From the IMG/VR virus record IMGVR_UViG_3300036820_000024, positions 1 through 54,369 of that record: a stretch of DNA of 54,369 nt, one strand, 5' to 3'. How positions within the stretch are numbered: the first letter of the stretch is position 1; the number at the start of each line of letters is the position of its first letter. The stretch is from a virus. Under the pieces are notes generated by a model that ran no database searches, had not been told where the DNA came from, and was given only the letters and a program-made list of their open reading frames with translations. Positions 957 to 45,428 of this stretch are shown here, piece after piece. The position numbers and the translations under genes were made by a program.

Positions 957-3900
957 ATGCCCGATAACTATACCGTCCCGTTTGGGATTGACAGCAGCAA
1001 GTTTTTTAACGACATTAACCAAATGGACGCGGGCCTCGACAAGTTATCAGCCGGGGCCGCTGATGCCGCAAGCAATATGCAAAAAGCATTTAACGCGACG
1101 GCGCAATCTTCCGACAAGCTGGGGGCGTCCCTGGATGCCAACACCTCGGCGGTGCAAATCTTACGCGACCAGGCAGCAAAGGCGGGTGCTGATATTGCCA
1201 ACTCATTATCCGGAAAAGGTATTGATACGGCATTTAGTACCCGCGTTGCTGCGATTAAAAAGCAATTGCAAACCCTGGCAACAACTACAATCGATCTAAA
1301 CGTCGATTTTCCCGACGCCAAAATACAAGTATTGGAGGAACAAATTAAAGCCGCTACCAGCGCGACCGAGCAATTTAATACCGTTATCCAGTTTGCAAAA
1401 GATCAATTAGCTACAATGACGCCCGGCGGTCAATCATTCATTACGTTATCGACCCAAATACAGACAGCCGAGGAATTTTTACAAAGCCTTAACACCGCGA
1501 TTGCTCAAACGGTGCCAACCGCCGCCGAGTTATCCGAACAATTTAACCGCATATTTGGCGACCCTGGGCAATTCTTAAGCCAAAAAGAATTATTAGCCCT
1601 GGACGAAGCGTTAAGCACTACCAACAGCGACGCCGAGGCCCTCACGGCACAAGTAACGGCCCTATCTAATAAGCTGGCAACGCTCAAACCTGACAATGCC
1701 CAATTTGAGCAATTTACAACCGCCGTCCAGGCTGGCAATGAGGCACTCCAGGCAATGGGCGCAAGCGTCGTGCAAACCGCCGGGGCCGAGGATAACGCAA
1801 CCGCCTCGACCGTTAGTTATCGTACCCAACTAAGAAACATACGTGAGGAATTGGCAAACCTATACGCCGCTGGCTTGCAAAATTCGCAAGAATTTCAGGA
1901 CCTAACCGCAAAGGCGGCACAAGTCGGCAACGCGTTTGCAAATGCCAGCACGGCAATAAAAAACTTAAGCGCTAACGACGTTTATCTACGTGCCGGAACC
2001 GAGGCAATGACGGGTTTAGTGGGAGCCTTTACAGCAGCCCAGGGCGCGGCTGCATTATTTGGGGGTGAAAACAAAAAAACCCAGGAAACAATCGCCAAAG
2101 TAACCGGCGCGCTGGCAGTATTGCAAGGCGTCCAGGCAATCGCTAACGCCCTGCAAAAAGATAGCGCGTTAACCATTTTGTTAACCAAGAGTGCAAGGCA
2201 AGCCGATACCGTCGCCGCCGTTGAGGAAACGGTAGCGGTTGAGGGTGAAGCCGAGGCAACGGTTGCCGCAACCGCCGCAACCGAAGGGTTTACGCTGGCA
2301 TTGCTGGCAAACCCTTTGACGTTGATCGTTGCCGCGATAGCGTTAGCAATTGCCGGTTTGGTGGAATATATCAGCAAAACGGACGACGCAACCGACGCGA
2401 TCAATAAGGAAAACATTGCCCTTAAAGTCCAAAAAGAGAGTTACGACGATCAATTAAACGCCATTCAAAAGTCAACCGATTTGCAAGTCGCCCAGGCTCA
2501 ACAAGCTGGCGCCAAACAAAGCGAAATACAGGCCCGTACGATTTTCGGTTTACAGCAAGAATTAAAAGCCAGGCAGGATAATGTAAAACAGGTCGGGGCG
2601 CAATTGGACGAAATCCAAAAACTTGCGGACGCTTCCCCGGATAATAAGGATTTAGGTAAACAGTTAATCGACGTCGGCGAACAATATAAAAAGGCACTCG
2701 ACGACGTGTTTAACGCTACTCACGATCTCGAGGTTAAAGGCATTGAGCAACATACCGAAATTACAAAAGAGCACGAAGAGGTCGACGCGGCATTTTTGGC
2801 CGAGATGCAAAGCAATTACGCCGCCCGAAAGGCTATAATTTCAGCAACCCAGGGCTTCATAAAGGATGCCCATAAAGAGGAACAAGACGAGTTAACACAA
2901 AACAACGATAAGCAGTTGTTAAAGATAAAACAGGATGCCCAGGACAGGATAGACGTTGTAAACTCGTCTATCCAGGATATGAAGCAAAAGGTTAAGGAAA
3001 ACAACGCGCAAATTAGCCTTATAGGTGAGCAAGTGGGTACGGGCAATATTGACCCAGCCGTCGGCGCTAAACAGATAGCGGATTTACGGGCGCAAAATAA
3101 TTTAATCGCGACCGAGGAAAAGCGGGCCGGTGATGACATTGTGGCAATTAAAAATAATACTGGCTTGCAAATTTTCCAGGCTCAAAAAGAATTTGCACAA
3201 AAGCAGTTAGACCTTCAGTTATCGGCAAACCTGTTATTTGCCCAAAATACCGAAGCCGGTTTTCAGCACGACCAGGATGTTTTAAAAGCCCAATTTGAGC
3301 AACGAAACCAAACGATTATACAGCAGTTTGCAAACCGGAAGGATTTGATCGGGCATTTACTTGCGTCCAATACCGCCGCGTATGCTGATGCCCTGTTAAA
3401 GTTAATAGAGGCTAACCGTGAAAAGGTTTTAGACCAACAAAGCCAGTTAGACCAGTTGCAATTACAAAACTCGGGACAATTCGCGTTAGATAGCACAAAA
3501 CAGCAGGAACAATTACAGGTACAATTATTAGAAATTCAAATTAAGTACGCAAAACTTAAGCTGGACGGCATGGTGGACGACGGCACCAAAGAGAGCGAGG
3601 TAGCCATTGCCCAGCAGAAACTATTAATTGCAAATCTGCAAAACGGACTTAAACAAGCGACCGTAAAGGCGGGCACCGTTGATATTTTCGACGTCCTGGG
3701 GTTGGGGTCACTTTCGGACGATAGCAAAAAGGCACTTTCTGATGCATTGAGCGCCGTTACAAAGGGCCTCGGTCAAATACTGACAGCCGTAACGGACGGG
3801 TATAAGGCCCAAATACAGGCAAAGCAAACGTTAATCGACGCCGATACCGCCGCGCTTAATACCCTGACTAATCAGTTACAAACCGAGCAGGACCTACGGG

Positions 3901-4676
3901 CTAAGGGTTTAGCTAATAACGTCGCCGGTATCCAGGCACAAATAAACGCTAAAAACCAACAGATTGCGACCGAGAAAGCCCAGCAGACTAAATTAATAAA
4001 GCAAAACCAGGACGCCCAGCGCGCCCAGGCTGAAATTAACGCCGCCATTGAGGCCGGTAATTTAATCGTTGCCGCCTCAAATATTTTTAAATCACTTTCG
4101 GCAATTCCTTACGTCGGAGTTGCCCTGGCTATTGCCAGCGTCGCCGCAATGACAGCCGGTTATATTGCCGCCCAGGTAGGTATCTTTAAAGCCATTAACG
4201 CGCAAAACAGCGGAAGCCAGTTTGAGGGGGGCGGTTGGATTGAGGGGCAACCGCATAGCCGGGGCGGTCAAAAATACCGCTCGGTTGACGGGGGGGGCGG
4301 TTTACTCGAGTTAGAGGGGAGCGAGTTTGTTGTGAGAAAATCGGTTGCCGCAAAAAATGCTAACTTTTTAGAAGCCCTTAACGATGGGCAATTAACGGAG
4401 GACGATCTGCGGGAATTTTTACACGGTTCCGGTGTGTCGTTGAGCGTTGACGCCCCGTTAAAGGCTATCGGGGACGTTAAAGTACTGGACGCCGCTAAGG
4501 TTGGTTATTTTCACACGATGCAAAATAACAACTTCAGCGCCGACGACATAAGCGCGTTACGCGAGGGCGTCGAGTACATGGTTAACCTTAAGAAAACCGA
4601 ACCTAAACGCTGGGAGGATGCCAATTATTATTATTCCCAATTGGGTAACACTATTTCAAAAACCGCCAAAAAATGA
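957..4676 (+). CDS. Tail tape measure protein
   Basis: The 1239-aa protein sets tail length and is threaded through the tail tube during DNA injection. It is rich in Ala, Gln and coiled-coil heptads, with two hydrophobic segments (about residues 445-472 and 1045-1080) that could insert in the membrane. Near the C-terminus a Gly-rich stretch is followed by a motif around residue 1122 (EFVVRKSVAAKN), typical of tape measure C-termini. By the usual 0.15 nm per residue this predicts a tail of roughly 180-190 nm, that is, a siphovirus. It follows the chaperone pair and overlaps the next gene by ATGA. Confidence 0.92.
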   Translation: MPDNYTVPFGIDSSKFFNDINQMDAGLDKLSAGAADAASNMQKAFNATAQSSDKLGASLDANTSAVQILRDQAAKAGADIANSLSGKGIDTAFSTRVAAIKKQLQTLATTTIDLNVDFPDAKIQVLEEQIKAATSATEQFNTVIQFAKDQLATMTPGGQSFITLSTQIQTAEEFLQSLNTAIAQTVPTAAELSEQFNRIFGDPGQFLSQKELLALDEALSTTNSDAEALTAQVTALSNKLATLKPDNAQFEQFTTAVQAGNEALQAMGASVVQTAGAEDNATASTVSYRTQLRNIREELANLYAAGLQNSQEFQDLTAKAAQVGNAFANASTAIKNLSANDVYLRAGTEAMTGLVGAFTAAQGAAALFGGENKKTQETIAKVTGALAVLQGVQAIANALQKDSALTILLTKSARQADTVAAVEETVAVEGEAEATVAATAATEGFTLALLANPLTLIVAAIALAIAGLVEYISKTDDATDAINKENIALKVQKESYDDQLNAIQKSTDLQVAQAQQAGAKQSEIQARTIFGLQQELKARQDNVKQVGAQLDEIQKLADASPDNKDLGKQLIDVGEQYKKALDDVFNATHDLEVKGIEQHTEITKEHEEVDAAFLAEMQSNYAARKAIISATQGFIKDAHKEEQDELTQNNDKQLLKIKQDAQDRIDVVNSSIQDMKQKVKENNAQISLIGEQVGTGNIDPAVGAKQIADLRAQNNLIATEEKRAGDDIVAIKNNTGLQIFQAQKEFAQKQLDLQLSANLLFAQNTEAGFQHDQDVLKAQFEQRNQTIIQQFANRKDLIGHLLASNTAAYADALLKLIEANREKVLDQQSQLDQLQLQNSGQFALDSTKQQEQLQVQLLEIQIKYAKLKLDGMVDDGTKESEVAIAQQKLLIANLQNGLKQATVKAGTVDIFDVLGLGSLSDDSKKALSDALSAVTKGLGQILTAVTDGYKAQIQAKQTLIDADTAALNTLTNQLQTEQDLRAKGLANNVAGIQAQINAKNQQIATEKAQQTKLIKQNQDAQRAQAEINAAIEAGNLIVAASNIFKSLSAIPYVGVALAIASVAAMTAGYIAAQVGIFKAINAQNSGSQFEGGGWIEGQPHSRGGQKYRSVDGGGGLLELEGSEFVVRKSVAAKNANFLEALNDGQLTEDDLREFLHGSGVSLSVDAPLKAIGDVKVLDAAKVGYFHTMQNNNFSADDISALREGVEYMVNLKKTEPKRWEDANYYYSQLGNTISKTAKK

Positions 4677-6871
4677 GCAATATAAATAATTACCGCTATA
4701 CCCTTACGACCCGTCGCGGGGTTAAAACTGTTTATCCCCTCGGCGAAGGGGATTTTACTATTTCCTGGGCAAACCAAACCAGCGGCAAGCGATATTATAA
4801 AACCGATTTGCCAAATAACGTAATATTTTTTAAAGATGCTTACGACACTCTTTATAAACTCGAGACCTCGGTATACCGCTGCGAGTATATAAAAATTTTG
4901 GTTGAGCGACGTTGTACCCTGGGCGGCTTGGAAAATTGGGCTCCGTGGTTTACGGGGCGTTTTTTGTTAAATAGCGGCTCGTTTGATCTCGACCGGGAGC
5001 AAGTGGTTATAAAGGTCGATGATTTACAGGATTACAGTTGTTTTGACGACAACAATACCCTCCAGCTTAATTTATTTGACTTTGTGACGAACCGTTACCA
5101 GGTTAACACATACCCGCCCAATACCTCGGTTGAAAAAATCGACAAAACCAGCGTTTATTTAAGTAGTGAGCATGGGCGTTGCGTCGGTTATGCCTGGGAT
5201 GAACTTTATACAGCCGAAAGCGTCGGTTTTACCCCGTACTATAACGAAATTCGTACCGATTGGGTACCCGACCCTGACAATCCTATGGGGCCGGGGAGTC
5301 CCGTTCCTTACACTTGTACCATACACACGTCATACGCTCGGCAAAAAATGGTAGTTGCTTGCGGCGACCCGTCGCCCGGGTCTGACTGGATTTTATTAAC
5401 CGACACTTGCCCAGGCGGGGAGAAAACGTATGTACGGGGCGTCGGTACCTATGGTTGCACCCTTACGGACGAAACCCCCGATTTAGGCGGTTATCTTAAT
5501 CAGATTTGGAATTGCTTAATAGTTGGCGACTCCGACACGATCACGACAATAGATAATGGCATGTTATTGAGCGATTGTTTACAGTTGTTTTTAAATCAAT
5601 ATTGCGGCTCGATTTTGATAAAATCTAACTTTTTGCAGATCAACCCGGACGTCGTTAGCCCAAATAATTACGTAACGGGCGAACTATCCAAAACCGCCAA
5701 CGTGTTAGTTTTTCAGAAATCGGACGTTAAGCGCCCCAACGTTTCGGGTAACGCTACCATTGCACAAATCGACTGGACGGACCTGTTAACGTACGTCGTT
5801 ACCCTTTATAATTTGGCCTGGAGGTTTGAGTACGACGAGACCGGCGCGGTAACTGTTTTTCGTCTCGAGCACGTGAGTTATTACGACCCTGGAGTAGGCC
5901 TTGACCTCACGCAACCGAAATACGCCAAATACATGAATAATTTACGGCGTTACAGCTATAACAACCCCTCGATACCAGCCCAGGAAACGTTTAGTTTCAT
6001 GGAGGCCGTCGGGGCTGATTTTGTGGGGTTGCCAATCGTTTACGACGCCGGTTGTGTCACGGCTGAAAGCAGCCAAAATAATATTAACTATGCGTTGAGC
6101 AACTTAACGACTGAAGTGGCATTGTGTTTGAGTAACCCACCGTCGGACAGCTCTATCGTGTCGGACGATGGGTTTGTTTTTATCGCGTGTCAAAAGGACG
6201 GCGACGGTAATTTTTTTATTGTTTCGGAAAGCGGCATATTTAGCGGGAGCGCCTTAAATAATTCGTTAGCCTGGGCGCAATTACACCGGGATTATTGGAA
6301 ATATGAGCGCCCCGTTAAAGTCGGAAATATGAACGGGGCCGAGACTACGTTTATATCCATTATCCCAACAAAAAAAGGCGACGTTTTAACAATTCCTTTG
6401 TGCTGCGGGGATACTTTCGACCCGTCGTTAAAGGTATTAACACCCCTGGGTATCGGGAAAGTAGACAGCGCCGTTTATTCGTTCAAATCAAATACTTTGC
6501 AGCTTAGTTTATTGTATGACGCCAACCTGGATTTAACAACCAATACGCCGCCGGTAGCTGGCAACCTTACCGAAAGCGTTTACCAGCCCGAAAGTATCGA
6601 CATTGACGTCCTGGCCGTATGCTCGGACGTTGACCCCGATAGTTATTTTACGGCGGTTAATATCATTTACCCGCCTTTGCACGGGCACATTGACGTATTG
6701 GATAACATGCACGTACGCTATACCCCGGACGTTGGTTATATCGGTACTGATAGTTTCGTTTACGAAGTTTTGGACGACTGGAGCGAACCATCAAACCCGG
6801 CACTTGTCGCAATAAATGTTTATGGTGAATATGAGGCATTCACTTATACTTTTTCTTTAACTTTAGCATAA
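4673..6871 (+). CDS. Distal tail / baseplate protein with C-terminal Ig-like domain
   Basis: This 732-aa protein directly follows the tape measure (ATGA overlap), the usual place of the distal tail and tail-associated proteins. The body has no enzymatic motif that I recognise. Residues about 623-720 look like a bacterial Ig/cadherin-like repeat: NTPPVAGN, then a GHIDVLDN...YTP..GYIGTDSFVYEVLD pattern. Such domains bind surface glycans weakly in phage virions. It is probably part of the tail tip. The exact role (Dit-like or Tal-like) cannot be fixed from the sequence alone. Confidence 0.7.
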   Translation: MSNINNYRYTLTTRRGVKTVYPLGEGDFTISWANQTSGKRYYKTDLPNNVIFFKDAYDTLYKLETSVYRCEYIKILVERRCTLGGLENWAPWFTGRFLLNSGSFDLDREQVVIKVDDLQDYSCFDDNNTLQLNLFDFVTNRYQVNTYPPNTSVEKIDKTSVYLSSEHGRCVGYAWDELYTAESVGFTPYYNEIRTDWVPDPDNPMGPGSPVPYTCTIHTSYARQKMVVACGDPSPGSDWILLTDTCPGGEKTYVRGVGTYGCTLTDETPDLGGYLNQIWNCLIVGDSDTITTIDNGMLLSDCLQLFLNQYCGSILIKSNFLQINPDVVSPNNYVTGELSKTANVLVFQKSDVKRPNVSGNATIAQIDWTDLLTYVVTLYNLAWRFEYDETGAVTVFRLEHVSYYDPGVGLDLTQPKYAKYMNNLRRYSYNNPSIPAQETFSFMEAVGADFVGLPIVYDAGCVTAESSQNNINYALSNLTTEVALCLSNPPSDSSIVSDDGFVFIACQKDGDGNFFIVSESGIFSGSALNNSLAWAQLHRDYWKYERPVKVGNMNGAETTFISIIPTKKGDVLTIPLCCGDTFDPSLKVLTPLGIGKVDSAVYSFKSNTLQLSLLYDANLDLTTNTPPVAGNLTESVYQPESIDIDVLAVCSDVDPDSYFTAVNIIYPPLHGHIDVLDNMHVRYTPDVGYIGTDSFVYEVLDDWSEPSNPALVAINVYGEYEAFTYTFSLTLA

Positions 6872-6881
6872 TTTTTAACAC

Positions 6882-7217
6882 ATGGCAAACACAACGGTAG
6901 AAACTAAAATCACAGGTGATACATTTAGCGCTGATGAATGTAATAACATGGTTTCGGCAATTAATAGCAAGCAGGACGATTTAACAATCATCACTAAAAA
7001 TGAAAGCGATTTGATAGAAACATTTACAGGAAGCGGAGTATGGTATTTACCGTTTTTGGATAGTTTGGGAGATTCTCTTCCGGCCGACACTATCCCGCTA
7101 TTCATTCGCTACAATGGCACCCAATTTTTAGGCAATTATGATGAAACCACAACCCCTCCACGAATTTATAACTTTCCAAATAATTCCTCCGCAACTATCA
7201 AAATAACAACTAATTAA
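6882..7217 (+). CDS. Small tail-tip protein of unknown function
   Basis: The protein has 111 aa and lies between the distal tail protein and the fibre. It has no cysteine or clear motif; it starts MANTTVETKITGDTFSADE, which resembles the short N-termini of virion attachment proteins. Its DNA is richer in AT than the flanking tail genes and lacks the CTCGAG and CCWGG words that are frequent elsewhere, so it appears to belong to the same imported segment as the fibre gene. A fibre adaptor or accessory is an inference from position. Confidence 0.6.
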   Translation: MANTTVETKITGDTFSADECNNMVSAINSKQDDLTIITKNESDLIETFTGSGVWYLPFLDSLGDSLPADTIPLFIRYNGTQFLGNYDETTTPPRIYNFPNNSSATIKITTN

Positions 7218-7228
7218 TATTTTATAAC

Positions 7229-10210
7229 ATGAAAAAAATAAACATTTTATTAACCTTAGTGGCGCTATCGTTAGCGCTAAAAGCACAAACATATACTCCA
7301 GCCGGCACAGTTGTGCAAAGGGCGCCAACGTCTAAAGGATATATATACCGCATTCCGCTGGGGATATATGGATATTTGAATATAAGGAGTAATGCTCAAA
7401 CTGATAGTTTAATATCATTGGCAGCGGTTAATGCTAATCAAGGCCTGACGCTTTCAGGCGACACTGTGGAGTTTGGAGGGACGATGTATAAAGACGCTGT
7501 GGTAACGGTTGGCGGACATTTGCTGAACTTTATCGTAAGCAATTCAACAAGCCCAGGCGTTAACGTTTCCAGTTTGGGAGGCAATAACTATGTTCAGATA
7601 GTGCCCCCTGACGGCCTTTTCGACCAGCCAGCGGGTATCACAATGGTAGATAGCTTAGGCAATCAAAGTAATTTAACAAGTCAAATATTTCAGGTATTTA
7701 ATCAGGCATATCCTACCGATCCGGCATTAAATGGATATGCCGGGGGTACAACGATTGGAGGTGCTTTTATGAGTATGTCAGGGGGGCAGGGAAATGGCGA
7801 TATGGTATTAGATACCGCGCAATTAGTAATTTCATATCAAAAATCAGGTACTAATAGTGCAGTGGAAATTCAACCAAATGCCGGGGAATTTATATTTTAT
7901 TACGATCAAGGGAGTACCAATCCTTCTGGTTTTTCATTAGACACTTTAACAGACTATCTACAAGATTATAATAATGTCCATTACGCTAAAGCGGGTTCAG
8001 ACGCTTCACACGTAATATTAGGGGATGGTACTTATGGCGCCTATAGCGGCGGCGGTTCCGGCACCATGACTTCCATAACCCCCGGCGTAGGCTTCTTATC
8101 TCACACCCCGATAACAACCTCCGGAACAATGGACGTTGACACGGCGACAACGGTGGCGAGTAAAACGTTCGCAGGTAGATACATTACGGCGGCAAGTACG
8201 AATACGTTAAGCAATAAAAACCTAACAGGGGCCGGAAATTCATTTCCAACCTTCAACCAGGCTACAACAAGCACGGCCGCAAATTTATCAGGCACCCCGG
8301 CATTACCGAACGGGACTACAGCGACAACGCAAACAACTGGCGATAATACCAGTAAGTTAGCTACGGACGCGTTTGTTAACTCTTCGGTGACGGCTGATAG
8401 TACATCATTATCGGCAAACTACCAAACGAGGCCGATCGGGCTTATCTATAAAACAGCGCCGACAACACTAACCGATTTTACCTATTCAGGCTTTACCCCA
8501 ACGGCGTCAAATGCCGGCATAACATTTACGGGCGGAAGCAACACGTTTACCCAAACGATGATTATTAACGGCATCACAAACAACGACCCGAACCAGGATA
8601 TCGTTGTCGGTTATAAGATCGGAGCTACCGGGCATGGATTGGGTATCGGCCGAAAATCAATCGATATACAGGCATCGCTCATTATTCAATATGATGAGAC
8701 CACGAATGCCTTAATATTTACAAGCCTTCAGGGCCCGACGACGTTGGCTACCATCCCGGCTAACTTTACTGTGTCTAATAACGATCTTTGCATTATAAGA
8801 CTTTCACAGCGAGAAAATGTAATTACCGGCACATTTACCGATGCATCGCTGACGGGAGCAACCTTTAGCTTTGCAGTGCCGCTTCAAACGGCTGGGTACA
8901 ATGTTCAAATACCAAATACCGCCGATATCTGCCTGTACAATATCGGCGGTACGCATACCGTATCAAACATTTCGGTAACGTCGAAATCATTATTTCGGCC
9001 GGATTTAATCCTGGTCGGCGACAGCAAAGTAGCGGGATTCGGGGTGTTTGGTCTCCCTTTCAGGTGGGCTAATCAATTAGGCCCATTGGGGAGCGTAGAG
9101 GTATACGCCGGCGGCGGCGACAAGGTGGCCGATATGCTGGCCGCACAGCCTTATATCCTTAAGTACGTCCAGCCGCGTAATGTTGGCATTTGTGTGCTGA
9201 GAAACAACCTTAGCGGCGGCACGTTAACATCCGGAAACAAAACCGACTACCAAACGCTGACAACGAATTACCTGGTTGGGTCTGCCGTCTATCATTTCCT
9301 GCCGATTACAGAAGAGTCAATACCCGATCAAAGCGCCATTACCACATTTATTGACGCCACTTATTCAAGCGCAAATATTATCGACCCATCTTCCGGTGTT
9401 ATAACCATCGACACCGCTACAATGCTGGCCGTGGACAAGATACATCTGAACTATTTGGGCGACCTGGCCGTTTCGACCAACATACTTCATGCCAATAAAA
9501 TTCCGCTTTCCAATCACGTTAGTCCGTTTATCCCGTCGGACCCGATAATTACTTATCCAGTCGTTTACACGTCGGGCAGGGCACTGTTTGGAAATGGCAC
9601 ATCAACCCCGGTTGTAAGCACAAACATCTTTGCAAGCGGCACATTCGTAGGGATAAACGCATCTTCACCTGGTGTGGCATTGGACGTTTCAGGAGCAAGG
9701 GTAAGGCTGTTAAGCGGTTCCGGGAGCGTAGGTTATCAAACTGGTGTGAGTGCTGTTACATACGGTAATTATGTTGCGTCATCATCGGCGCAATTCAGTA
9801 CAGATGCGGCGGTTGGCGATAATGTTCAGCAAGTGTCGAGCACATCGGAGGCAATTCTGTTTAATCTAAACGCTGGTGCCGGTGCGGCAGAGGTGGCATT
9901 AAGACATACCGGGCTTCTTACGACAGTTCCAATAAAGATAACATCGGCTACAACCTCGGTAACAGGAAGCACAAGCGGGACGGCGGTATTTAGCCAACCG
10001 GAAGCAGGCGGAACGATGAAAATTGTAATGATTCAGTTAACATCGCTAATTGGAACAGCATCATACACTTATCCTACTGCATTTGTAAACACTCCGGTAG
10101 TTTTGACAAGTTCGGGTTTATCTGGCAGTATAGCCACATCGGTGAGCACGACGGCGGTAACATGCACCGGGACGACAAGTACGGGGACTTTGATTTTAAT
10201 GGGATATTAA
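7229..10210 (+). CDS. Tail fibre with SGNH/GDSL esterase domain and N-terminal signal-like sequence
   Basis: The 993-aa protein is the likely receptor-binding fibre. Residues 1-20 read as a Bacteroidota signal peptide (MKK, hydrophobic core, ending KAQ|T). The middle has fibre-type low-complexity repeats, including a GTPALPNGTTATTQ..DNTSKLATDAFV block like the phage tail-collar repeats. Residues about 594-745 resemble an SGNH hydrolase: nucleophile motif G597-D598-S599, a Gly-rich block (YAGGGDK), an Asn in VLRNN, and D736-x-x-H739 near its end. Such domains deacetylate surface polysaccharide. The Ser/Gly-rich C-terminus probably trimerises. The segment 6875-10210 differs in word composition from the rest of the genome. 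A terminator follows at 10251. Confidence 0.8.
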   Translation: MKKINILLTLVALSLALKAQTYTPAGTVVQRAPTSKGYIYRIPLGIYGYLNIRSNAQTDSLISLAAVNANQGLTLSGDTVEFGGTMYKDAVVTVGGHLLNFIVSNSTSPGVNVSSLGGNNYVQIVPPDGLFDQPAGITMVDSLGNQSNLTSQIFQVFNQAYPTDPALNGYAGGTTIGGAFMSMSGGQGNGDMVLDTAQLVISYQKSGTNSAVEIQPNAGEFIFYYDQGSTNPSGFSLDTLTDYLQDYNNVHYAKAGSDASHVILGDGTYGAYSGGGSGTMTSITPGVGFLSHTPITTSGTMDVDTATTVASKTFAGRYITAASTNTLSNKNLTGAGNSFPTFNQATTSTAANLSGTPALPNGTTATTQTTGDNTSKLATDAFVNSSVTADSTSLSANYQTRPIGLIYKTAPTTLTDFTYSGFTPTASNAGITFTGGSNTFTQTMIINGITNNDPNQDIVVGYKIGATGHGLGIGRKSIDIQASLIIQYDETTNALIFTSLQGPTTLATIPANFTVSNNDLCIIRLSQRENVITGTFTDASLTGATFSFAVPLQTAGYNVQIPNTADICLYNIGGTHTVSNISVTSKSLFRPDLILVGDSKVAGFGVFGLPFRWANQLGPLGSVEVYAGGGDKVADMLAAQPYILKYVQPRNVGICVLRNNLSGGTLTSGNKTDYQTLTTNYLVGSAVYHFLPITEESIPDQSAITTFIDATYSSANIIDPSSGVITIDTATMLAVDKIHLNYLGDLAVSTNILHANKIPLSNHVSPFIPSDPIITYPVVYTSGRALFGNGTSTPVVSTNIFASGTFVGINASSPGVALDVSGARVRLLSGSGSVGYQTGVSAVTYGNYVASSSAQFSTDAAVGDNVQQVSSTSEAILFNLNAGAGAAEVALRHTGLLTTVPIKITSATTSVTGSTSGTAVFSQPEAGGTMKIVMIQLTSLIGTASYTYPTAFVNTPVVLTSSGLSGSIATSVSTTAVTCTGTTSTGTLILMGY

Positions 10211-10250
10211 CTATTGACAAATAGGGAGTGGCTAAGAAAATACACCCAAT

Positions 10251-10276
10251 AAAAAGGGCATTTAAACGCCCTTTTT
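10251..10276 (+). terminator. Rho-independent terminator after the fibre gene
   Basis: A 9-bp stem (AAAAAGGGC with GCCCTTTTT), 8-nt loop and T-run. It lies 40 nt downstream of the fibre stop and separates it from the next tail gene. Confidence 0.85.
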
Positions 10277-10375
10277 ATGTTTTAAATACCTTTAAAGTTG
10301 CCCGTTTTCTGATGCCTTAAGGACGAAAAAAGATCGTCGATTACAGGCCATTTTTAAAACAAAAAATTAATAAAC

Positions 10376-11536
10376 ATGCTAATTTTTAACACTGTGCCCG
10401 GCCCGTTTCCGGTATATGACAAGCTGCAAAAGCAAAACCGTTACCGGAAAAATTGCGCCGGGCAACAACTCGATTATAAATTAATATCCCCGAAGGACGC
10501 CCTTTTACCCTGGCAATATCGGCGCTTAACGGCGGCGTCCGAGATGACAACCTGGAAAATCGTTAAAGTCGATACCGGCGACATTTTGGACATAACGGAA
10601 AACATTGCCTTTGGGGTAATTCATACCGAGACGCTCGAGGGTTACGACTATTTTTATTACGGGGGAGACGGCTTGCAGTTTAGCGACGATACCCTCCGGC
10701 TTACTTATGGTTATTATTACTTTGGCCTGGAATTTTCCGACGGGTCGGCGGCTTATAGTGAGTTGTTTTTTATTCCTGAAGATAGTTTTTCCATTACGGA
10801 CGCCCCCGAGTACGTTAATTACATCAAATTGGAATGGTACAACCTGGGGGGCGACATAGCGCCGTTTTATTACTCGGGCCTATACGAGGACGATAGCCTG
10901 ATTTTTCGTTGCGTGTGTTACCTGGATAGTATCATTACGGAAAGCCAGCCGGTACTGACCCAAACGACCGCAAAGGACGGCGACGACCAGGACATACCAA
11001 TTTTTCAGCGGGTCGACATTCCGTACATAATTAATACGTTTGTGCCCGACTTTTTAAAGCGGGCCTTCGTGTTGATGCCATTGCACGATACGATCAATTA
11101 TACCAGCGCCGACGGCATAGACAGCGGGCAATTTGATACCGTTTCCGTGACCGTTAAGAGCGAAGCGCCGGGGTGTATGAGTAGCGTTGACCTATCGTTT
11201 AAACAAGCCCTGGCAGTCGTTAACCGGGCTTGTGCAACCAATTTAATTAAAACCCCGACCGGCACGACTTACAATTATTTCAAGGTTCAAAATACGGATA
11301 GCGAACATTACGACATTAACGACCTCGGGCAAGTTGTGGTAACGTCGTCGTTGTTGATGGGGAAAACCGGTTACGGCATATATGCCCCCCAAATACCTAA
11401 TTTTATCGACCGGTCATTGATCACGTACGACGGCACCGGCGGCTCGTTTACCATTACGGCCCCTGGCTTCGTATTGATCGACGGCGGTTATTTATATGTT
11501 TTTTACAATTTAGTTGACTTAGATTTATTCCCATGA
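10376..11536 (+). CDS. Virion/tail protein of unknown role
   Basis: The 386-aa protein is rich in Tyr, Asp and Phe, with short beta-like stretches (such as YGYYYFGLEFSDGSAAYSELFF), a composition usual in baseplate and tail-tip proteins. I recognise no family. It starts a new transcription unit after the fibre terminator, and its last codons overlap the next gene (ATGA at 11533), which points to joint expression. Codon and word use match the main genome rather than the fibre segment. Confidence 0.65.
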   Translation: MLIFNTVPGPFPVYDKLQKQNRYRKNCAGQQLDYKLISPKDALLPWQYRRLTAASEMTTWKIVKVDTGDILDITENIAFGVIHTETLEGYDYFYYGGDGLQFSDDTLRLTYGYYYFGLEFSDGSAAYSELFFIPEDSFSITDAPEYVNYIKLEWYNLGGDIAPFYYSGLYEDDSLIFRCVCYLDSIITESQPVLTQTTAKDGDDQDIPIFQRVDIPYIINTFVPDFLKRAFVLMPLHDTINYTSADGIDSGQFDTVSVTVKSEAPGCMSSVDLSFKQALAVVNRACATNLIKTPTGTTYNYFKVQNTDSEHYDINDLGQVVVTSSLLMGKTGYGIYAPQIPNFIDRSLITYDGTGGSFTITAPGFVLIDGGYLYVFYNLVDLDLFP

Positions 11537-12063
11537 GCAAACCCGAATTAATCAGAAGCCCGGCGGGGCCTAATACGATTGTCGACGACAATCTGAAAGT
11601 AAACGCGTTTATTTTCCCCGTTAATGTGGACGACGAGCATTTGCCGGAACTCGAGGAAATACAAGGCCGTTGTTTCGTAAGCAGTACCGACAAACGGTTG
11701 TACATTTTGGACGACGATGGCGTTTACAACCCGGTTGCCTATTTGTCCGACACGTCGATAGCAAACGCTTTAATAAATCTTGCAAGTGGAACAAAAATTA
11801 TCGGCGATGCGGACACTAATCATACGGATGTCGGGGATGGAACGACCGTGACGTTTGATATAGGAATAGTCTTACATTCAACAAATTACATGGTAATTCT
11901 AACAATAATTTCATTGTCAGATGACCCACAAAATGATTTATTTCATAACGTCACGATTCGGGAAAAAACAACCGCGACCTTTGATGTTTATTTTAGAGAG
12001 ACGGCCGACCTTGTACAAAACATCAATGTTGACTGGCTAATTATTCCGTTGGCTGAATATTAA
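11533..12063 (+). CDS. Tail appendage protein with a compositionally distinct C-terminal half
   Basis: 176 aa. The first 75 residues are acidic and encoded in the GC-richer style of the genome, with a CTCGAG site; they include an SSTDKRLYILDDDGVYN stretch common in phage attachment proteins. From about 11760 the DNA becomes AT-rich and the protein changes to a beta-rich segment (VGDGTTVTFDIG...). This looks like a conserved virion anchor fused to an exchangeable tip. No enzyme motif is seen. A promoter for the next gene overlaps its 3' end. Confidence 0.6.
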   Translation: MSKPELIRSPAGPNTIVDDNLKVNAFIFPVNVDDEHLPELEEIQGRCFVSSTDKRLYILDDDGVYNPVAYLSDTSIANALINLASGTKIIGDADTNHTDVGDGTTVTFDIGIVLHSTNYMVILTIISLSDDPQNDLFHNVTIREKTTATFDVYFRETADLVQNINVDWLIIPLAEY

Positions 12064-12080
12064 TGAAAATTATATCTTTG
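12049..12080 (+). promoter_or_regulatory. Bacteroidota-type promoter upstream of a tail protein gene
   Basis: TTG at 12049-12051, 21-bp spacer, TATCTTTG at 12073-12080, matching the TAnnTTTG -7 element. The start codon is at 12112. The gene downstream ends in a terminator at 13011, so it forms a single-gene, probably strongly expressed unit. Confidence 0.7.
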
Positions 12081-12111
12081 TTTATATTATTAAACTTTAA
12101 ATATTTTCAAA

Positions 12112-12987
12112 ATGAGCAACCCAGTATGTCCCGAAAATTGCGCTTATGACTTGCCCGCCGTAAGTTATAACAATTGCGCGCCAAAAGTGCAGCAATCACA
12201 AATCAGGCGGTTATTTGTAGGCAAAGCCAACGCGGCGGCGTTCGCCGATTGGACGCAAGCCGCTGAATGGTTAACCAGGTGTAACCAAAACACCACGACG
12301 GGCGACGATTACATTCGCGTCCTGACAGTAACGGGCGAAAAGCCAGCGCCTAAAAACATTACTAAAGTAATTGACAATGGATTTTTAGCCCAAATCGGCA
12401 AAGATCACACGGTTAATTTTACAACCTACCAGGTAACCGACGACAATTATGAATTTATGCGCGGTTCCGAGTGCGGGACGTTCGTTAAACTCTTTGCTAT
12501 CGAGACAATGGGCGGGGCCTTTTTTGGCACCAACGCCGGGCAACTCGTTTCTAACGTTATGGACTCCGTGTTAACGGGGGGTGATGACGACCTGGAAAAC
12601 CTTACCGGCTCAATGACCTGGAGGAGTAAATTTAGCCTCGAGCGTATCGCATTAAGCCCGATTTTTGAGGTTGATTTTAACCTGACACCGGGCGACGGCG
12701 GCGGGGTCGTTTATGACACTATCCAGTTATTCGACACCGAGGCAAGCATCACAAGTGAGGGTATAACAACAACATTGCCAGGCACAGATCCGGACGCTAA
12801 GTTTGAGTTTAACAGGGTAATTTCAGCAGTCGGCGCGCCTCAAACCATGAACTTAAACGAGGGCGTCGATAACGTTGCAGTTGTTGACTTCCCAGCCGAT
12901 TATCTCGGGGCAACCTGGAGGTTTACGGACGACAGCGGAACCGTTTACCAGGGCGTATTTACAAACGGGGACATTATTATGTCATAA
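12112..12987 (+). CDS. Major tail (tube) protein candidate
   Basis: The 291-aa acidic protein has its own promoter (12049-12080) and terminator (13011), an arrangement expected for a very abundant structural protein. The N-terminus has several Cys (VCPENCAYD..NNCAPK), then a mixed beta-rich body with W-R-S and SPIFEVDF segments resembling tail-tube subunits, and a C-terminal small domain (DDSGTVYQGVFTNGD). I recognise no named family. Its position after the tail tip genes is unusual for a tube protein, so another abundant virion protein is the alternative. Confidence 0.5.
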   Translation: MSNPVCPENCAYDLPAVSYNNCAPKVQQSQIRRLFVGKANAAAFADWTQAAEWLTRCNQNTTTGDDYIRVLTVTGEKPAPKNITKVIDNGFLAQIGKDHTVNFTTYQVTDDNYEFMRGSECGTFVKLFAIETMGGAFFGTNAGQLVSNVMDSVLTGGDDDLENLTGSMTWRSKFSLERIALSPIFEVDFNLTPGDGGGVVYDTIQLFDTEASITSEGITTTLPGTDPDAKFEFNRVISAVGAPQTMNLNEGVDNVAVVDFPADYLGATWRFTDDSGTVYQGVFTNGDIIMS

Positions 12988-13009
12988 TTAACCAAATCAT
13001 TAACAATAC

Positions 13010-13034
13010 AGGGCGGTTTTTTAACCGCCCTTTT
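13010..13034 (+). terminator. Rho-independent terminator
   Basis: An 8-bp perfect stem (GGGCGGTT with AACCGCCC), TTTT loop and a TTTT tail. It ends the single-gene unit of the preceding tail protein and lies 24 nt before the next start. Confidence 0.9.
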
Positions 13035-13057
13035 ACTTAGTCAAAAATTAACCCCTT

Positions 13058-13984
13058 ATGAGTAAAACCCTTTTAATCGGGCCTAACGCCGTTACCGCTT
13101 TGGTATCCCAGGCCGCAAGCGAAATTTTCACGTCCGAAAATTGCGCGGTTGTTTTCAACGCCGACGGTACATACAGAAGTTGGCAACCCAACCGGGTAAT
13201 AAATTCCTTTACCGATCTCGAGGTCGGCGCTGGATACATTGCCATTATGAAGGATACACTCGACGTCACGGGCGTATTTTCCGAGGGTATCCCCGGCATA
13301 GCGCAAGCCGGGGTTTACAATTTAAGCCAGTACGATTTAACATTATTTGATTTGGGGTCGAGTGATACCTCAACCCTGGCAAGCGGCGATTTTTTACCGC
13401 AACCGGACGGCGACGCATACAACTTTGAGGTAAAGGCCGTAACCGCCGGTATATACGGCGTTATACACGTCCCCACAAACCCGCAAAATGTGGTTTATTG
13501 GGAGGGAGGTGGAAACTTTGCACACGTTGGGGCAACAAGCCAGTTTTTCAGCTTTAACGCCGCCTCTTTTAATCAAAAGAGCATTTATATAATTTTGGAC
13601 GTTCACGATAGCGCGTTGCCCCCAGGCGCTCCGGAAAATGAGTTTTATTTTTTCAACGGCTCGGCTGATGATTTGTCGTACAAGGAAAACGATATAGTTA
13701 TCGCGACGATTGCCGCCGGAACCGGATACAAACGGACGCTAACGCAATTAACTGGCAAAGTAAACCCGGAGGTCACGACCCCCGTTACAGCTGGCAGCTA
13801 TAAGGTTGCCAGGATTGACAATCTTAACACCGGGGAAAACAAAGCCCTTTATTTTGATGTTGCGGGCGCGCCGTCGTCAAACGTGGAAATAAATTTATCC
13901 GACATTACGGCGGGAAATCAATTCTTTTTCTTAGGCCCCGCCGGGGCATTTGGAGAGGGTACAATTATCGACATACCCGCATAA
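13058..13984 (+). CDS. Virion structural protein of unknown role
   Basis: 308 aa, soluble, with beta-rich, Gly/Asp/Asn-rich segments, no cysteine-rich motif and no recognised enzyme signature. It begins MSKTLLIGPNAVTALVSQAA. It stands between two strong terminators (13010 and 13991), which suggests a high-copy product with its own expression. Position between tail and lysis genes and composition point to a virion decoration or tail protein. No family was recognised. Confidence 0.55.
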   Translation: MSKTLLIGPNAVTALVSQAASEIFTSENCAVVFNADGTYRSWQPNRVINSFTDLEVGAGYIAIMKDTLDVTGVFSEGIPGIAQAGVYNLSQYDLTLFDLGSSDTSTLASGDFLPQPDGDAYNFEVKAVTAGIYGVIHVPTNPQNVVYWEGGGNFAHVGATSQFFSFNAASFNQKSIYIILDVHDSALPPGAPENEFYFFNGSADDLSYKENDIVIATIAAGTGYKRTLTQLTGKVNPEVTTPVTAGSYKVARIDNLNTGENKALYFDVAGAPSSNVEINLSDITAGNQFFFLGPAGAFGEGTIIDIPA

Positions 13985-13990
13985 CGTTTA

Positions 13991-14026
13991 AAAAATGCCC
14001 CGATCAAACAACGGGGCATTTTTTTT
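13991..14026 (+). terminator. Rho-independent terminator
   Basis: A long stem (AAAAATGCCCCG with CGGGGCATTTTT), 9-nt loop and an extended T-run. It separates the virion genes from the lysis cassette. An upstream ATG-like start inside this hairpin is therefore not used for the next gene. Confidence 0.92.
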
Positions 14027-14038
14027 GAGCAATTTTAT

Positions 14039-14046
14039 TACCTTTA
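14039..14046 (+). promoter_or_regulatory. Near-consensus -7 element before the lysis cassette
   Basis: TACCTTTA differs from TAnnTTTG only in the last base. The same TACCTTTA recurs at 14399-14406, again between a terminator and a start codon, which supports a promoter role for both. No -33 element at the correct distance was found. Confidence 0.35.
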
Positions 14047-14060
14047 AAGCTAAATTTATT

Positions 14061-14336
14061 ATGAATATGACAACTCAAAACATTGAGGAGTTAGGCGCTC
14101 ACATTACCAGCAAAACCGGCGCTCGTATCCTTTGGTATTTCGGTATTATGTTAATTGCTTTGCTGGGTTGCTTCTATGGCATAGAGGCCAAAATTGACAG
14201 TATGCAGGCACAAATGGAAATCAGGAAAACCCAGGCAGACGGTAAATTTGATCTCATTAACAACAATATCGAGAACGTCAAAAACGATCTTAAGGACGTA
14301 AAAGACGACGTGAAAGATTTGAAGGGCCGAAAGTAA
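14061..14336 (+). CDS. Small membrane protein with C-terminal coiled coil (lysis cassette)
   Basis: 91 aa from ATG 14061; a longer frame starting at 13995 would run through the terminator and is not credible. One membrane segment (WYFGIMLIALLGCFYGI, about residues 26-42) is followed by an amphipathic coiled coil ending in DLKDVKDDVKDLKGRK. Topology and place before the holin candidate and endolysin suggest a lysis accessory, such as a holin partner or spanin-like protein. No lipobox is present. Confidence 0.6.
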   Translation: MNMTTQNIEELGAHITSKTGARILWYFGIMLIALLGCFYGIEAKIDSMQAQMEIRKTQADGKFDLINNNIENVKNDLKDVKDDVKDLKGRK

Positions 14337-14361
14337 CAACCTTTTTACTATACAATATTTT

Positions 14362-14397
14362 AACGACTTGTCTAACAAACAGGTCGTTTGCTTTTTT
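14362..14397 (+). terminator. Rho-independent terminator in the lysis cassette
   Basis: A 10-bp stem with one G-T pair (AACGACTTGT with ACAGGTCGTT), 7-nt loop, then TGCTTTTTT. A TACCTTTA promoter-like element follows directly at 14399. Confidence 0.85.
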
Positions 14398-14430
14398 ATA
14401 CCTTTACATAAATTAATTAATCAAAACAAT

Positions 14431-14991
14431 ATGAGCAACTTTTTAAAAATCGTTTTTGGGGACGCGCCCCTCAACAATTTTGCCGCGTACATGGTACTGG
14501 CAATAATCGGAATTTTCATTAAATTACTTTTGCACGTTGTGCAGCGTAACCAGGCAAGCCCAAATACGCCGGTTGATTTTTCCATTTGCTTTATGCTTAA
14601 GGATAACGCCATTAGGTTAATGGCTTCGCTATCGTTAAGCCTATTTGTGGTTTTCGCTTGCATACGCTTTACGAGTGAAATTTTACACGTCCAGTTAAGC
14701 CCGTTTGTTGCCCTGGGTATAGGGCTTGCGTCCGATTACCTGGCAGAGCAGCTAAAAAATTTGGCGTCGTCCCGTACGCCTTTTACGGGCGTAGCAACGT
14801 TGTTGACGGATTTAAAACCCGATCAACCAGGCTCGGGTGATCAGCCAGCAGGTCCTGCAGCAATAGACCCCGAGAAACCAGCCATTGACCAAATACAAGT
14901 CGGGCCGATTGCCGAGGTTAAACAAATCGTACAACAAGACGAGACGCCTCCAGCTGGGGATATCAACGGAAACCAAAAACCAACCGTATAA
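14431..14991 (+). CDS. Holin candidate
   Basis: 186 aa from ATG 14431; the longer in-frame start at 14368 falls inside the terminator. Two or three hydrophobic segments are visible (about residues 12-30, 61-80 and a weaker one near 95-108), followed by a hydrophilic, Pro/Gln-rich tail. It precedes the endolysin, with only a homing endonuclease between them. In phages this topology and position indicate a holin that permeabilises the inner membrane. The long charged tail is unusual for small holins and could be a regulatory domain. Confidence 0.6.
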   Translation: MSNFLKIVFGDAPLNNFAAYMVLAIIGIFIKLLLHVVQRNQASPNTPVDFSICFMLKDNAIRLMASLSLSLFVVFACIRFTSEILHVQLSPFVALGIGLASDYLAEQLKNLASSRTPFTGVATLLTDLKPDQPGSGDQPAGPAAIDPEKPAIDQIQVGPIAEVKQIVQQDETPPAGDINGNQKPTV

Positions 14992-14992
14992 G

Positions 14993-15541
14993 ATGCGGTA
15001 TATTATCGGTACGGCCATAAAAAAACAAACCTCGGGTAAATTGGAACCCGAGGTTTTTGTGCCTATTGTTGGGTATGAGCGTGGTTATGCCATTGGCTCA
15101 CATGGTAACGTTTACAGCATATCTAAACAAATAATAATGCAACCGTTTGTCGATAAGGATGATTATTTAATCATTAAGTTATCAAAACGGGGACACAAAC
15201 GAAACTTTAAAATTTCCAGGCTCGTTGCCTTACACTTTATCTCAAACCCCGAAAACAAAGAGGAGGTTAACCACTTGAAAGGTAAGCGGGATAATTATTA
15301 TAAACATCTTGCCTGGGCGACGCCAAAAGAAAACGTTAACCACGCTTTTGAGCACGGTTTGAATAATAGTAACCATTGCCGACACCGCGTAAAAAGCACT
15401 CACGTTGCTACCGGCGAACAAAAAACATTTGATAGCTTACGCGAGGCAGAAACCATTTTAAACATAAGTCGCGGGTGTGTGTCGTCCGTATTATTGGGTA
15501 AATGCAATCAAACAAAAGGATATAAATTTGAAAAACTATGA
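14993..15541 (+). CDS. HNH homing endonuclease with NUMOD4 and NUMOD1 domains
   Basis: 182 aa from ATG 14993, one base after the holin stop. An N-terminal NUMOD4-like part (IVGYERGYAIGSHGNVYSI) leads into an HNH_3-type core with VNHLKGKRDN..YKHLAWATPKEN and a NUMOD1-like DNA-binding helix at the C-terminus (LREAETILNISRGCVSSVL, ending GYKF). Such enzymes cut alleles lacking them and spread by repair. It sits between holin and endolysin as a free-standing element, its stop overlapping the endolysin ATG. It has fewer CCWGG words than its neighbours, which fits later arrival. Confidence 0.9.
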   Translation: MRYIIGTAIKKQTSGKLEPEVFVPIVGYERGYAIGSHGNVYSISKQIIMQPFVDKDDYLIIKLSKRGHKRNFKISRLVALHFISNPENKEEVNHLKGKRDNYYKHLAWATPKENVNHAFEHGLNNSNHCRHRVKSTHVATGEQKTFDSLREAETILNISRGCVSSVLLGKCNQTKGYKFEKL

Positions 15542-16254
15542 AATCAGGAATTGACCTTTTTAACGCCCTGAAGCCACATGTTGGTGAGGCGTATGTAATG
15601 GGTACTTTGGTGCCTAAAAATAATAGCGGTTGGCGGGGGCCATGGGATTGTGCCGAGTTTGCCATTTGGGGCGCTTACCAGGTTGCGGCACAATTGTACG
15701 GTTGTCTTAACGATAACGGCAACCCAGGCAGCGCCGACGCTTATACCGGGTATTTGCAGCGGGACGCCGAAACCCTGGGTATTAAGATAAGTGTTGACCA
15801 GGCAAGCCGTACCCCAGGCGCGTTTATCTTACGCCTGGCGGCAAATGGCGTTTGTGCGCATGTAGTTGTGTCCGATGGAAACGGCGGCACCGTAGAGGCT
15901 CACGGACACGCTGACGGCGTTATTTTCGGTAAGGTAGCGGGGCGTCGCTGGGATTACGGTATTTTGTTGCCGTTCCTGACTTATACCGAGAACCTGATAG
16001 GCCCGGGAACTCAACCCGTAAGCCAGCCAGCAACGCCGGTGTATTACTTGCGGCAACCTATGATGGTCGGGCCGGTCGTGCTCGAGATCGAAAATAAATT
16101 AAAGGCCCTGGGTTATTATCACGGCGCGCTCGATAGTGAGTACGGCGGGGGCCTGTTTTCTGCGGTACGATCTTACCAGGCAAAAGAGGGGTTAAACCCG
16201 GACGGCGAGGTCGGCGAAAAAACAGCCGCCGCCCTGGGTATAAGCCTCGAATAA
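15538..16254 (+). CDS. Endolysin: NlpC/P60-CHAP-type peptidase with peptidoglycan-binding domain
   Basis: The 238-aa lysin cleaves cell-wall peptide bonds at the end of infection. Residues 1-150 form a papain-like fold: the catalytic Cys is C38 in PWDCAEF and the His is about residue 107 in CAHVVVSDG, followed by EAHGH. A Pro/Gln linker leads to a PG_binding_1-type domain (about residues 176-235, with VLEIENKLKALGYYHG and AVRSYQAKEGLNPDGEVGEKTAAAL). No signal peptide is present, so it needs a holin. The ATG overlaps the endonuclease stop. Confidence 0.88.
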   Translation: MKSGIDLFNALKPHVGEAYVMGTLVPKNNSGWRGPWDCAEFAIWGAYQVAAQLYGCLNDNGNPGSADAYTGYLQRDAETLGIKISVDQASRTPGAFILRLAANGVCAHVVVSDGNGGTVEAHGHADGVIFGKVAGRRWDYGILLPFLTYTENLIGPGTQPVSQPATPVYYLRQPMMVGPVVLEIENKLKALGYYHGALDSEYGGGLFSAVRSYQAKEGLNPDGEVGEKTAAALGISLE

Positions 16255-16257
16255 TAG

Positions 16258-16265
16258 TATATTTG
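16258..16265 (+). promoter_or_regulatory. TATATTTG -7 element after the endolysin gene
   Basis: A full match to TAnnTTTG lies just downstream of the endolysin stop, 47 nt before a terminator stem at 16312. No TTG lies at the -33 position. If active it would produce only a short RNA. Confidence 0.35.
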
Positions 16266-16311
16266 TGCCGCCCTTGTAGCGAGGGGAAACGTAATGATAG
16301 TTTGTTTTTGG

Positions 16312-16345
16312 ATGCCAGGTATTAACGTACCTGGCATTTTTTTTG
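16312..16345 (+). terminator. Rho-independent terminator after the endolysin
   Basis: A 10-bp perfect stem (ATGCCAGGTA with TACCTGGCAT), 6-nt loop and eight T residues. It marks the end of the lysis operon. The gap 16255-16415 otherwise holds the promoter-like element at 16258 and an AT-rich stretch leading to the next gene. Confidence 0.93.
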
Positions 16346-16415
16346 ATAAATGTTTAAAATAAGTTTTATATATGTTTAATAAAATTTATATAATTGTACT
16401 TTAAACAAAAAACGT

Positions 16416-16592
16416 ATGAAAAATTTGTTATTATTTCCTGGATGCTATAACGAGGGTTATACCGCTTGCCAGCAGTTTATGGGCGACGAAAACATGATTA
16501 CCAACCCGTATAAACCCGGCACCGGCGAAGCTAAGGCCTGGGCTAATGGTTGGGCCGAGGCCCTTTGTCGCTTACCTGTTTTTGCTTACTGA
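16416..16592 (+). CDS. Small protein of unknown function (58 aa)
   Basis: Starts MKNLLLFPGCYNEGYTACQQ and ends LCRLPVFAY. The pattern of FPGCYNEGYTA..F...NPYKPG..EAKAWANGWAEA reads like a small host-takeover-type protein with a conserved Gly-Cys, but I know no family. Its stop overlaps the next ATG (TGATG), so the two are translationally coupled. AT-rich DNA with TTGTACTTTAAAC upstream may hold a weak promoter. Confidence 0.65.
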   Translation: MKNLLLFPGCYNEGYTACQQFMGDENMITNPYKPGTGEAKAWANGWAEALCRLPVFAY

Positions 16593-19381: not shown

Positions 19382-20119
19382 ATGAACCCGAAAGCGCTAA
19401 AATATTTCATTGAAAACCGGGCTTTGTTCGTCATTAATCACAGCGGCGGCAAGGATAGCCAGGCAATGACGGCTTATTTACGATCAATCATACCCGCCGA
19501 GTTATTGGTGGTTATACACGCCCATTTGCCCGGCGTCGAGTGGGAGGGCGTTCGTGAGCACATACAGGACACAACCCAGGGATTGCCATATTACGAGGTA
19601 AGGGCCGTTAAAACCTTTATGGATATGGTTTTGCACAGGGGCAAATGGCCGGGTGCCGCTCAACGTCAATGCACAAGCGATTTAAAACGCGACCCAATAG
19701 ATAAGCAAATTCGGGCAATCGCAAAAGAGCGCGGTTGTAAACTAATTATTTCGTGTATGGGATTACGTGCCCAGGAAAGCACAAGCCGGGCAAAACAACC
19801 CCTGTTTAAAATGAGCAAACGCAACTCGAGGGCCGGGCGCAAATGGTATAATTTTAACCCTATTCATAGCTGGGATATAAACGACGTTTGGGCCGCGATC
19901 ACAGCAGCGGGCCAAAAAAGACATTGGGCATACGACGCCGGTATGAGCCGGTTAAGTTGCTGTTTTTGTATCCTGGCTAACAAAGCCGATTTAGCGACCG
20001 CCAAAAGATTGCGGCCCGAACTTTTCGCCAAATACGTTGCGGTTGAGAAACAAATAAATCACAGCTTTATTTCACCCCAGCGCGGGCACCCTGTTAAATT
20101 TTTGGACGAGATAATTTAA
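19382..20119 (+). CDS. PAPS reductase-like adenine nucleotide alpha-hydrolase
   Basis: The 245-aa protein belongs to the PP-loop ATPase superfamily: S21-G-G-K-D-S26 is the pyrophosphate-binding loop. A QCTSDLKRDPI segment near residue 98-108 and a Cys cluster LSCCFC near residue 192 match phage-borne PAPS-reductase/DndC-type proteins. In bacteria such enzymes reduce sulfate or transfer sulfur to nucleic acids. No DndD/E or other phosphorothioation gene is nearby, so the substrate in the phage is unknown. A terminator follows at 20162. Confidence 0.8.
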   Translation: MNPKALKYFIENRALFVINHSGGKDSQAMTAYLRSIIPAELLVVIHAHLPGVEWEGVREHIQDTTQGLPYYEVRAVKTFMDMVLHRGKWPGAAQRQCTSDLKRDPIDKQIRAIAKERGCKLIISCMGLRAQESTSRAKQPLFKMSKRNSRAGRKWYNFNPIHSWDINDVWAAITAAGQKRHWAYDAGMSRLSCCFCILANKADLATAKRLRPELFAKYVAVEKQINHSFISPQRGHPVKFLDEII

Positions 20120-45367: not shown

Positions 45368-45391
45368 CGGGCTTTAACCTAATCAACCGGC

Positions 45392-45428
45392 AAGGGCTTA
45401 ACTGTAAAATGTTAAGCCTTTGTTTTTT
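45392..45428 (+). terminator. Rho-independent terminator
   Basis: AAGG(G)CTTAAC pairs with GTTAAGCCTT across an 8-nt loop with one bulge, followed by TGTTTTTTT. It separates the secreted-protein gene from the portal gene. Confidence 0.8.

Follow-up and report, generated by a model that had tools for sequence, protein, structure and literature searches.

Does a phage protein that resembles a tail fibre leave the cytoplasm through the export pathway of its host? Tail-fibre assembly is normally taken as purely cytoplasmic. The question is raised by the virus DNA of the IMG/VR record IMGVR_UViG_3300036820_000024, of which the whole stretch of 54,369 bases was analysed (hereafter the window). Here, a gene located among tail genes encodes a protein of 993 aa, termed P0001, whose translation opens with MKKINILLTLVALSLALKAQTYTP. 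The tape-measure gene and the adjoining genes of the window (the gene following it and one neighbour) are related to genes of Bacteroides, Parabacteroides, Croceibacter, and Elizabethkingia phages, and the sequence thus points to a member of the Bacteroidota as the very probable host. The features discussed below are compiled in Table 1.

Table 1. Features of the window, with their positions and the basis of assignment.
Feature	Position	Strand	Basis or remark
Tail protein gene, left flank, after the tape-measure gene	4673-6871	+	Family common to Bacteroides, Parabacteroides, and Croceibacter phages
Low-GC3 module: ORF 6882-7217 and P0001 residues 1-280	6882-8068	+	GC3
Signal-free ORF, 111 aa, the other gene of the cassette	6882-7217	+	Possible adaptor, guessed from the N-terminus
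P0001, fibre-like protein carrying the signal, 993 aa	7229-10210	+	ATG start; no whole-length relatives
Signal peptide, 19 residues, MKKINILLTLVALSLALKA	7229-7285	+	Expected cut before Q20 (Q-rule)
Probable SGNH (GDSL) esterase domain, P0001 residues 585-765	8981-9523	+	Alignment to the GDSL domain of the L047 fibre
Terminator-like hairpin directly after the P0001 gene	10249-10278	+	Similar sites behind other late genes
Tail gene, right flank	10376-11536	+	Adjoins the homologue of 4673-6871 in nearly all relatives
Signal-free gene at the usual fibre position	13058-13984	+	phmmer E 1.6e-5 to L093:11978-12943
Second protein with a Q-rule-like signal, 159 aa	44888-45367	+	Just upstream of the portal gene
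Terminator-like site after the 44888-45367 gene	45389-45424		

P0001 Starts with a Signal Peptide That Follows the Q-Rule

The N-terminal stretch MKKINILLTLVALSLALKA is followed by QTYTP and comprises the n-region MKKIN with two lysines, a hydrophobic and uncharged h-region, and the c-region ALKA, directly succeeded by Q20. Hence, the basic n-region, the hydrophobic core, the small residue at -1, and the Gln at +1 that characterise substrates of signal peptidase I (SPI) under the Bacteroidetes Q-rule are all present, and the N-terminus is among the most hydrophobic of the long ORFs in the window. Signals were scored with a home-made rule that demands a basic n-region, a hydrophobic core of 8-14 residues, permissive residues at -3 and -1, and Q at +1. 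An equal score was reached by 3 of 200,000 shuffled segments, and a hydrophobic start arising by chance was rejected on these grounds. When all distinct ORFs of 300 aa or longer from the window and the first-round related loci (365) are compared, a Q-rule start is unique to P0001. A relaxed version of the rule was passed by 17 of 2,088 ORFs on both strands of the window and the related loci, versus 0.09% of shuffles, and not a single one among 5,172 internal Met positions passed it. By this home-made rule, the sequence of the P0001 start is confirmed as that of a Sec/SPI signal obeying the Q-rule, and the Bacteroidota-type export signal that a preliminary description had seen on this protein looks authentic.

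In Bacteroidetes, Q stands directly after the cut in about 71% of the SPI substrates on average (PMC5837995), and we therefore place the cleavage between LKA and QT, one residue earlier than the cut between KAQ and T that had been proposed. With the cut before Q20, the signal consequently ends at 7285, and the span 7229-7291 given before takes in two mature residues. There is no Cys within residues 1-40 of P0001 that could follow a lipobox, and a lipoprotein was rejected for this reason. Likewise, P0001 as a cargo of type IX secretion was rejected, as scans with Pfam and NCBIfam did not reveal a C-terminal T9SS domain.

The hydrophobic segment might alternatively stay uncleaved and tie the fibre to the virion or to the inner membrane. 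A low-confidence structure model of residues 1-281 (AlphaFold without an alignment, pLDDT 37), in which the segment forms a hydrophobic helix, would be compatible with such an anchor; the short h-region and the clean SPI site, with its Q at +1, point to cleavage, and we consider the chances of an anchor to be slim. The virion anchor, as put forward in the preliminary description, is disfavoured because the hydrophobic segment ends at a cleavable Q-rule site.

The ATG start at 7229 appears sound: it is preceded by an AT-rich leader and, 11 nt upstream, by the stop codon of the previous ORF, as is the case for the neighbouring genes. Other in-frame starts would be offered by GTG at residues 11 and 29 and, further on, by the next ATG at residue 86. 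The GTG codons would permit a true start further downstream (at residue 29, or with both starts being used), so that the signal would not normally be translated. The context of the ATG argues against such a misassignment, and so does the shuffle test, according to which a Q-rule signal would arise by chance upstream of the true start in about 1.5 of 100,000 cases. We thus judge a misassigned start to be very unlikely.

The P0001 Gene Is Part of an Inserted Cassette

Some 60 distinct related phages were compared, as counted by hand from the comparison table, and in about 54 of them the homologues of the two tail genes that flank the cassette (4673-6871 and 10376-11536) lie no more than ~70 nt apart. 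In the window, the same junction extends over 3,504 nt and contains ORF 6882-7217 and the signal-bearing gene, the largest gap in the other phages being below 1 kb when L042, which was misassigned, is left out. The latter viral contig also harbours a signal-bearing gene (2319-3182) that resembles di-haem cytochrome c peroxidases (CCP_MauG, E 5e-9) and may be flanking host DNA. Relatives of ORF 6882-7217 were not found in the searches run. The tail protein encoded by 4673-6871 carries at its C-terminus an additional bacterial Ig domain (Big_9, E 5e-10), which is absent from the aligned relatives. Elsewhere in the window, we noted a gene similar to C5-cytosine DNA methylases (16941-18425, E 8e-21) and one with a PAPS-reductase domain (19382-20119, E 6e-13).

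Moreover, the codons of 6882-8068 have a GC3 of 0.353 versus 0.526 in the other genes tested, a value below that of all 10,343 windows of equal size, with the boundary at 8068 picked after the data had been seen. The aberrant GC3 points to a different origin of the 5′ module, and insertion into a conserved junction combined with deviating composition is what characterises a moron-like cassette. Of the promoter and terminator that a moron may have of its own, the hairpin at 10249-10278 resembles the latter, although similar sites lie behind other late genes, and a promoter was not established. The earlier idea that the N-terminus was copied from a secreted host protein lacks support in that a host relative was not found, although the GC3 points to a different origin.

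The position usually held by the fibre is taken by the gene 13058-13984, which is weakly similar to the L093 gene at the matching place. Because of this gene and the insertion into the junction, the gene with the signal is probably supernumerary, that is, neither an ordinary fibre nor the only receptor-binding protein of the phage. The designation as a tail fibre, given at first sight, therefore needs to be qualified. P0001 has the gene position in the tail region and the fibre-like composition (a repetitive sequence rich in Thr, Ser, and Gly) expected of a virion fibre; the usual place of the fibre, however, is occupied by another gene.

The location in the tail region and the low-GC3 5′ module, which suggests a transplanted N-terminus, could also be reconciled with a virion fibre that retains and tolerates its signal. 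Such a fibre would fold and trimerise too fast for Sec and would be assembled on the tail in the cytoplasm; the N-terminal module would stem from a secreted host protein or another phage, and ORF 6882-7217 perhaps attaches the fibre. However, an idle signal should decay, yet all of its elements, including the Q, are intact. We regard a retained signal as rather unlikely, also in light of the related phages described below.

P0001 Comprises a Probable SGNH Esterase Domain

Relatives spanning the whole length of P0001 were found neither among phages nor among hosts, and comparison of pieces of the protein with phages yielded only weak unrelated matches. A scan for the pattern NRTHDLNG returned three loci, which are devoid of signal-bearing fibres, and a scan for GDTVEFGGT returned none. 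P0001 contains GDS at 597-599 (Ser599) and DxxHxN at 736-741, and the blocks GDS, Gly, Asn, and DxxH occur between residues 593 and 741 in the order known from SGNH/GDSL hydrolases. The block pattern, which was written after the P0001 sequence had been seen, matched 2 of 846 ORFs and none of 20,000 shuffles. In addition, the 802-aa fibre of L047 contains a GDSL domain with which residues ~570-755 of P0001 can be aligned (196 columns, pairwise E 6e-6), and none of 2,000 shuffles gave an equally good alignment. The L047 fibre itself matches Lipase_GDSL_2 (PF13472) with E 1.8e-7 and narrowly misses the curated cut-off.

Based on its sequence, P0001 is likely but not proven to be an SGNH/GDSL esterase with predicted activity. 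The assignment falls short of proof because a direct Pfam search of P0001 did not detect an SGNH domain, AlphaFold run without an alignment gave a model of low confidence for residues 585-765 (pLDDT 30), and hhalign of the domain against the SGNH domain of the Croceibacter phage P2559 fibre was negative. The N-terminus of the L047 fibre is signal-free, and in P0001 the similar effector domain sits behind the signal peptide. The presence of SGNH domains on signal-free fibres is again in line with P0001 being a virion fibre with a retained signal.

Export Signals Recur in the Fibre Clusters of Related Phages

Although the fibres of most relatives are signal-free, the P0001 signal is not an isolated case. 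In L097, three genes in a row at the fibre position, and a fourth nearby, encode proteins with Q-rule signals. The signal genes in this region (IMGVR_UViG_2915072144_000002, 11707-16420) specify a 538-aa fibre-like protein, a CBM5/12 protein, and a laminin-G protein. In L103 (7701-10750), which has a different tail module, up to three consecutive genes of the fibre cluster carry export signals, one being recognised by the relaxed rule, the second by a looser rule, and the third by eye; in the third protein, which resembles a fibre adaptor, SFA would be followed by QQQVINNGETGLVVRNKLNAMF after the cut. The CBM proteins encoded by L097 and L103 share 38% identity, and the signal is present in both. 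The relatives L101 and L105 are without signal, with L101-L107 having been fetched by similarity to a signal-bearing protein and thus biased for judging how common the signal is. Single Q-rule signals were observed in L032, L037, and L017. The L032 and L037 ORFs are truncated by the end of their contigs, and in both the signal overlaps with the gene upstream.

Signals on several neighbouring genes that are kept between diverged homologues speak against a signal that is merely tolerated. They would be reconciled with the fibre-like sequence and the location in the tail cluster if the fibre were cut, kept in the periplasm, and bound to finished particles during lysis. Such a late-joining fibre requires a docking site that is accessible after lysis, and a precedent was not found in the open-access literature; we deem it improbable.

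Further signal-bearing proteins were encountered outside and next to the fibre genes. The 156-aa protein encoded directly after the fibre gene of L017 (16513-16983) has a Q-rule signal and, at its C-terminus, a transmembrane segment, and by its sequence looks like a periplasmic protein anchored in the inner membrane. A predicted lipoprotein of 267 aa is encoded directly after the fibre gene of another relative (L010:18424-19227). In L038 (9920-10378), L021 (20852-21406), and L041 (4461-4961), the probable major capsid gene is immediately followed by a gene for a protein with a hydrophobic signal-like N-terminus, and the three proteins are homologous. These proteins and the product of 44888-45367 in the window are small (150-185 aa); the latter is like them in size and ending, phmmer shows no link, and phage relatives of it were not found.

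An Exported Accessory Esterase as the Favoured Reading

Taken together, the reading that we favour, with about even confidence, is that P0001 is an exported accessory, fibre-like esterase that remains periplasmic until lysis. Several direct observations argue for it: the signal lies far above chance and fits the Q-rule, the gene is inserted into the tail junction, the composition breaks within P0001, leaving a foreign GC3 in the 5′ module, and the GDSL-type domain can be aligned, as a distant similarity, with that of a fibre. The hairpin behind the gene and the occupation of the usual fibre position by another gene point in the same direction, as do the recurrence of signals in the phages L097, L103, L032, L037, and L017 and the precedent of Porphyromonas phages (PMC10367356). 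What weighs against it is that most fibres of the relatives are signal-free, that the SGNH domain was not detected by Pfam directly, and that export is predicted by the home-made rule only; moreover, P0001 could still be part of the virion, given the position of its gene among the tail genes and the occurrence of its SGNH type on signal-free fibres. Among the options offered by the preliminary description, export as a free enzyme or receptor blocker fits best, with export predicted by that rule.

In detail, the two-gene cassette 6882-10210 would have been acquired between two otherwise adjacent tail genes. P0001 would be made late in infection, threaded through the inner membrane by the SecYEG translocon of the host, and cut between LKA and QT, whereupon the new N-terminus may be capped as pyroglutamate by a host glutaminyl cyclase. 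Since neither a type IX secretion domain nor a lipobox was detected, we propose that the protein would be held in the periplasm and set free at lysis. Outside the cell, the fibre-like parts could bind a surface glycan while the SGNH domain strips ester groups from it. Free P0001 would thereby act as a receptor-destroying or matrix-clearing enzyme, with the putative benefit of limiting the rebinding of progeny and superinfection.

A bolder reading, which we put forward as speculative and quite unlikely, is that, in the case of some Bacteroidota phages, whole sets of fibre-cluster proteins, encoded by several consecutive signal genes, pass through the Sec machinery of the host. These proteins would then function beyond the cytoplasm, as free lectins and receptor-modifying enzymes or as parts that join virions only at lysis, which, if true, would provide a second compartment for the assembly or action of phage fibres. 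If fibre-type enzymes and lectins are exported during infection, proteins annotated as tail fibres in Bacteroidota phages may in some cases be secreted effectors by which neighbouring cells or glycans are modified, and the prediction of receptor-binding proteins and host range from sequence would have to change.

Comparison with Known Systems

The small lipoprotein Llp encoded by phage T5 blocks the receptor, is exported to the envelope, and can stop phage from rebinding. P0001 is likewise proposed to be an exported accessory phage protein that limits rebinding; in contrast to Llp, it is large and fibre-like, and bears an SPI signal in place of a lipobox. Like the L047 fibre and gp25 of Croceibacter phage P2559S, annotated as 'SGNH hydrolase-type esterase', P0001 is a large protein of the fibre cluster that is encoded near the same tail genes, and it probably bears an SGNH-type domain as well. 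Whereas the N-termini of these two proteins are signal-free (MAWE...), the probable domain of P0001 lies behind a signal peptide.

Signal peptides have been noted in rumen Bacteroides phages (PMC5723332), and we did not find a report in the open-access literature of export signals on tail-fibre genes of Bacteroidota phages or of a link between such signals and fibre clusters or esterases. A close parallel is provided by phages of Porphyromonas gingivalis ('Nixviridae'), in which five genes of unknown function encode signal peptides predicted to expose a Gln after SPI cleavage (PMC10367356). P0001 is similarly a phage-encoded protein with a Q-rule signal; unlike these genes, which the text of that study does not tie to fibres, it is a 993-aa fibre-like probable esterase encoded among tail genes. 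Thus, phage-encoded Q-rule proteins as such are known, and it is the pairing of a fibre and esterase with a Q-rule signal that looks new.
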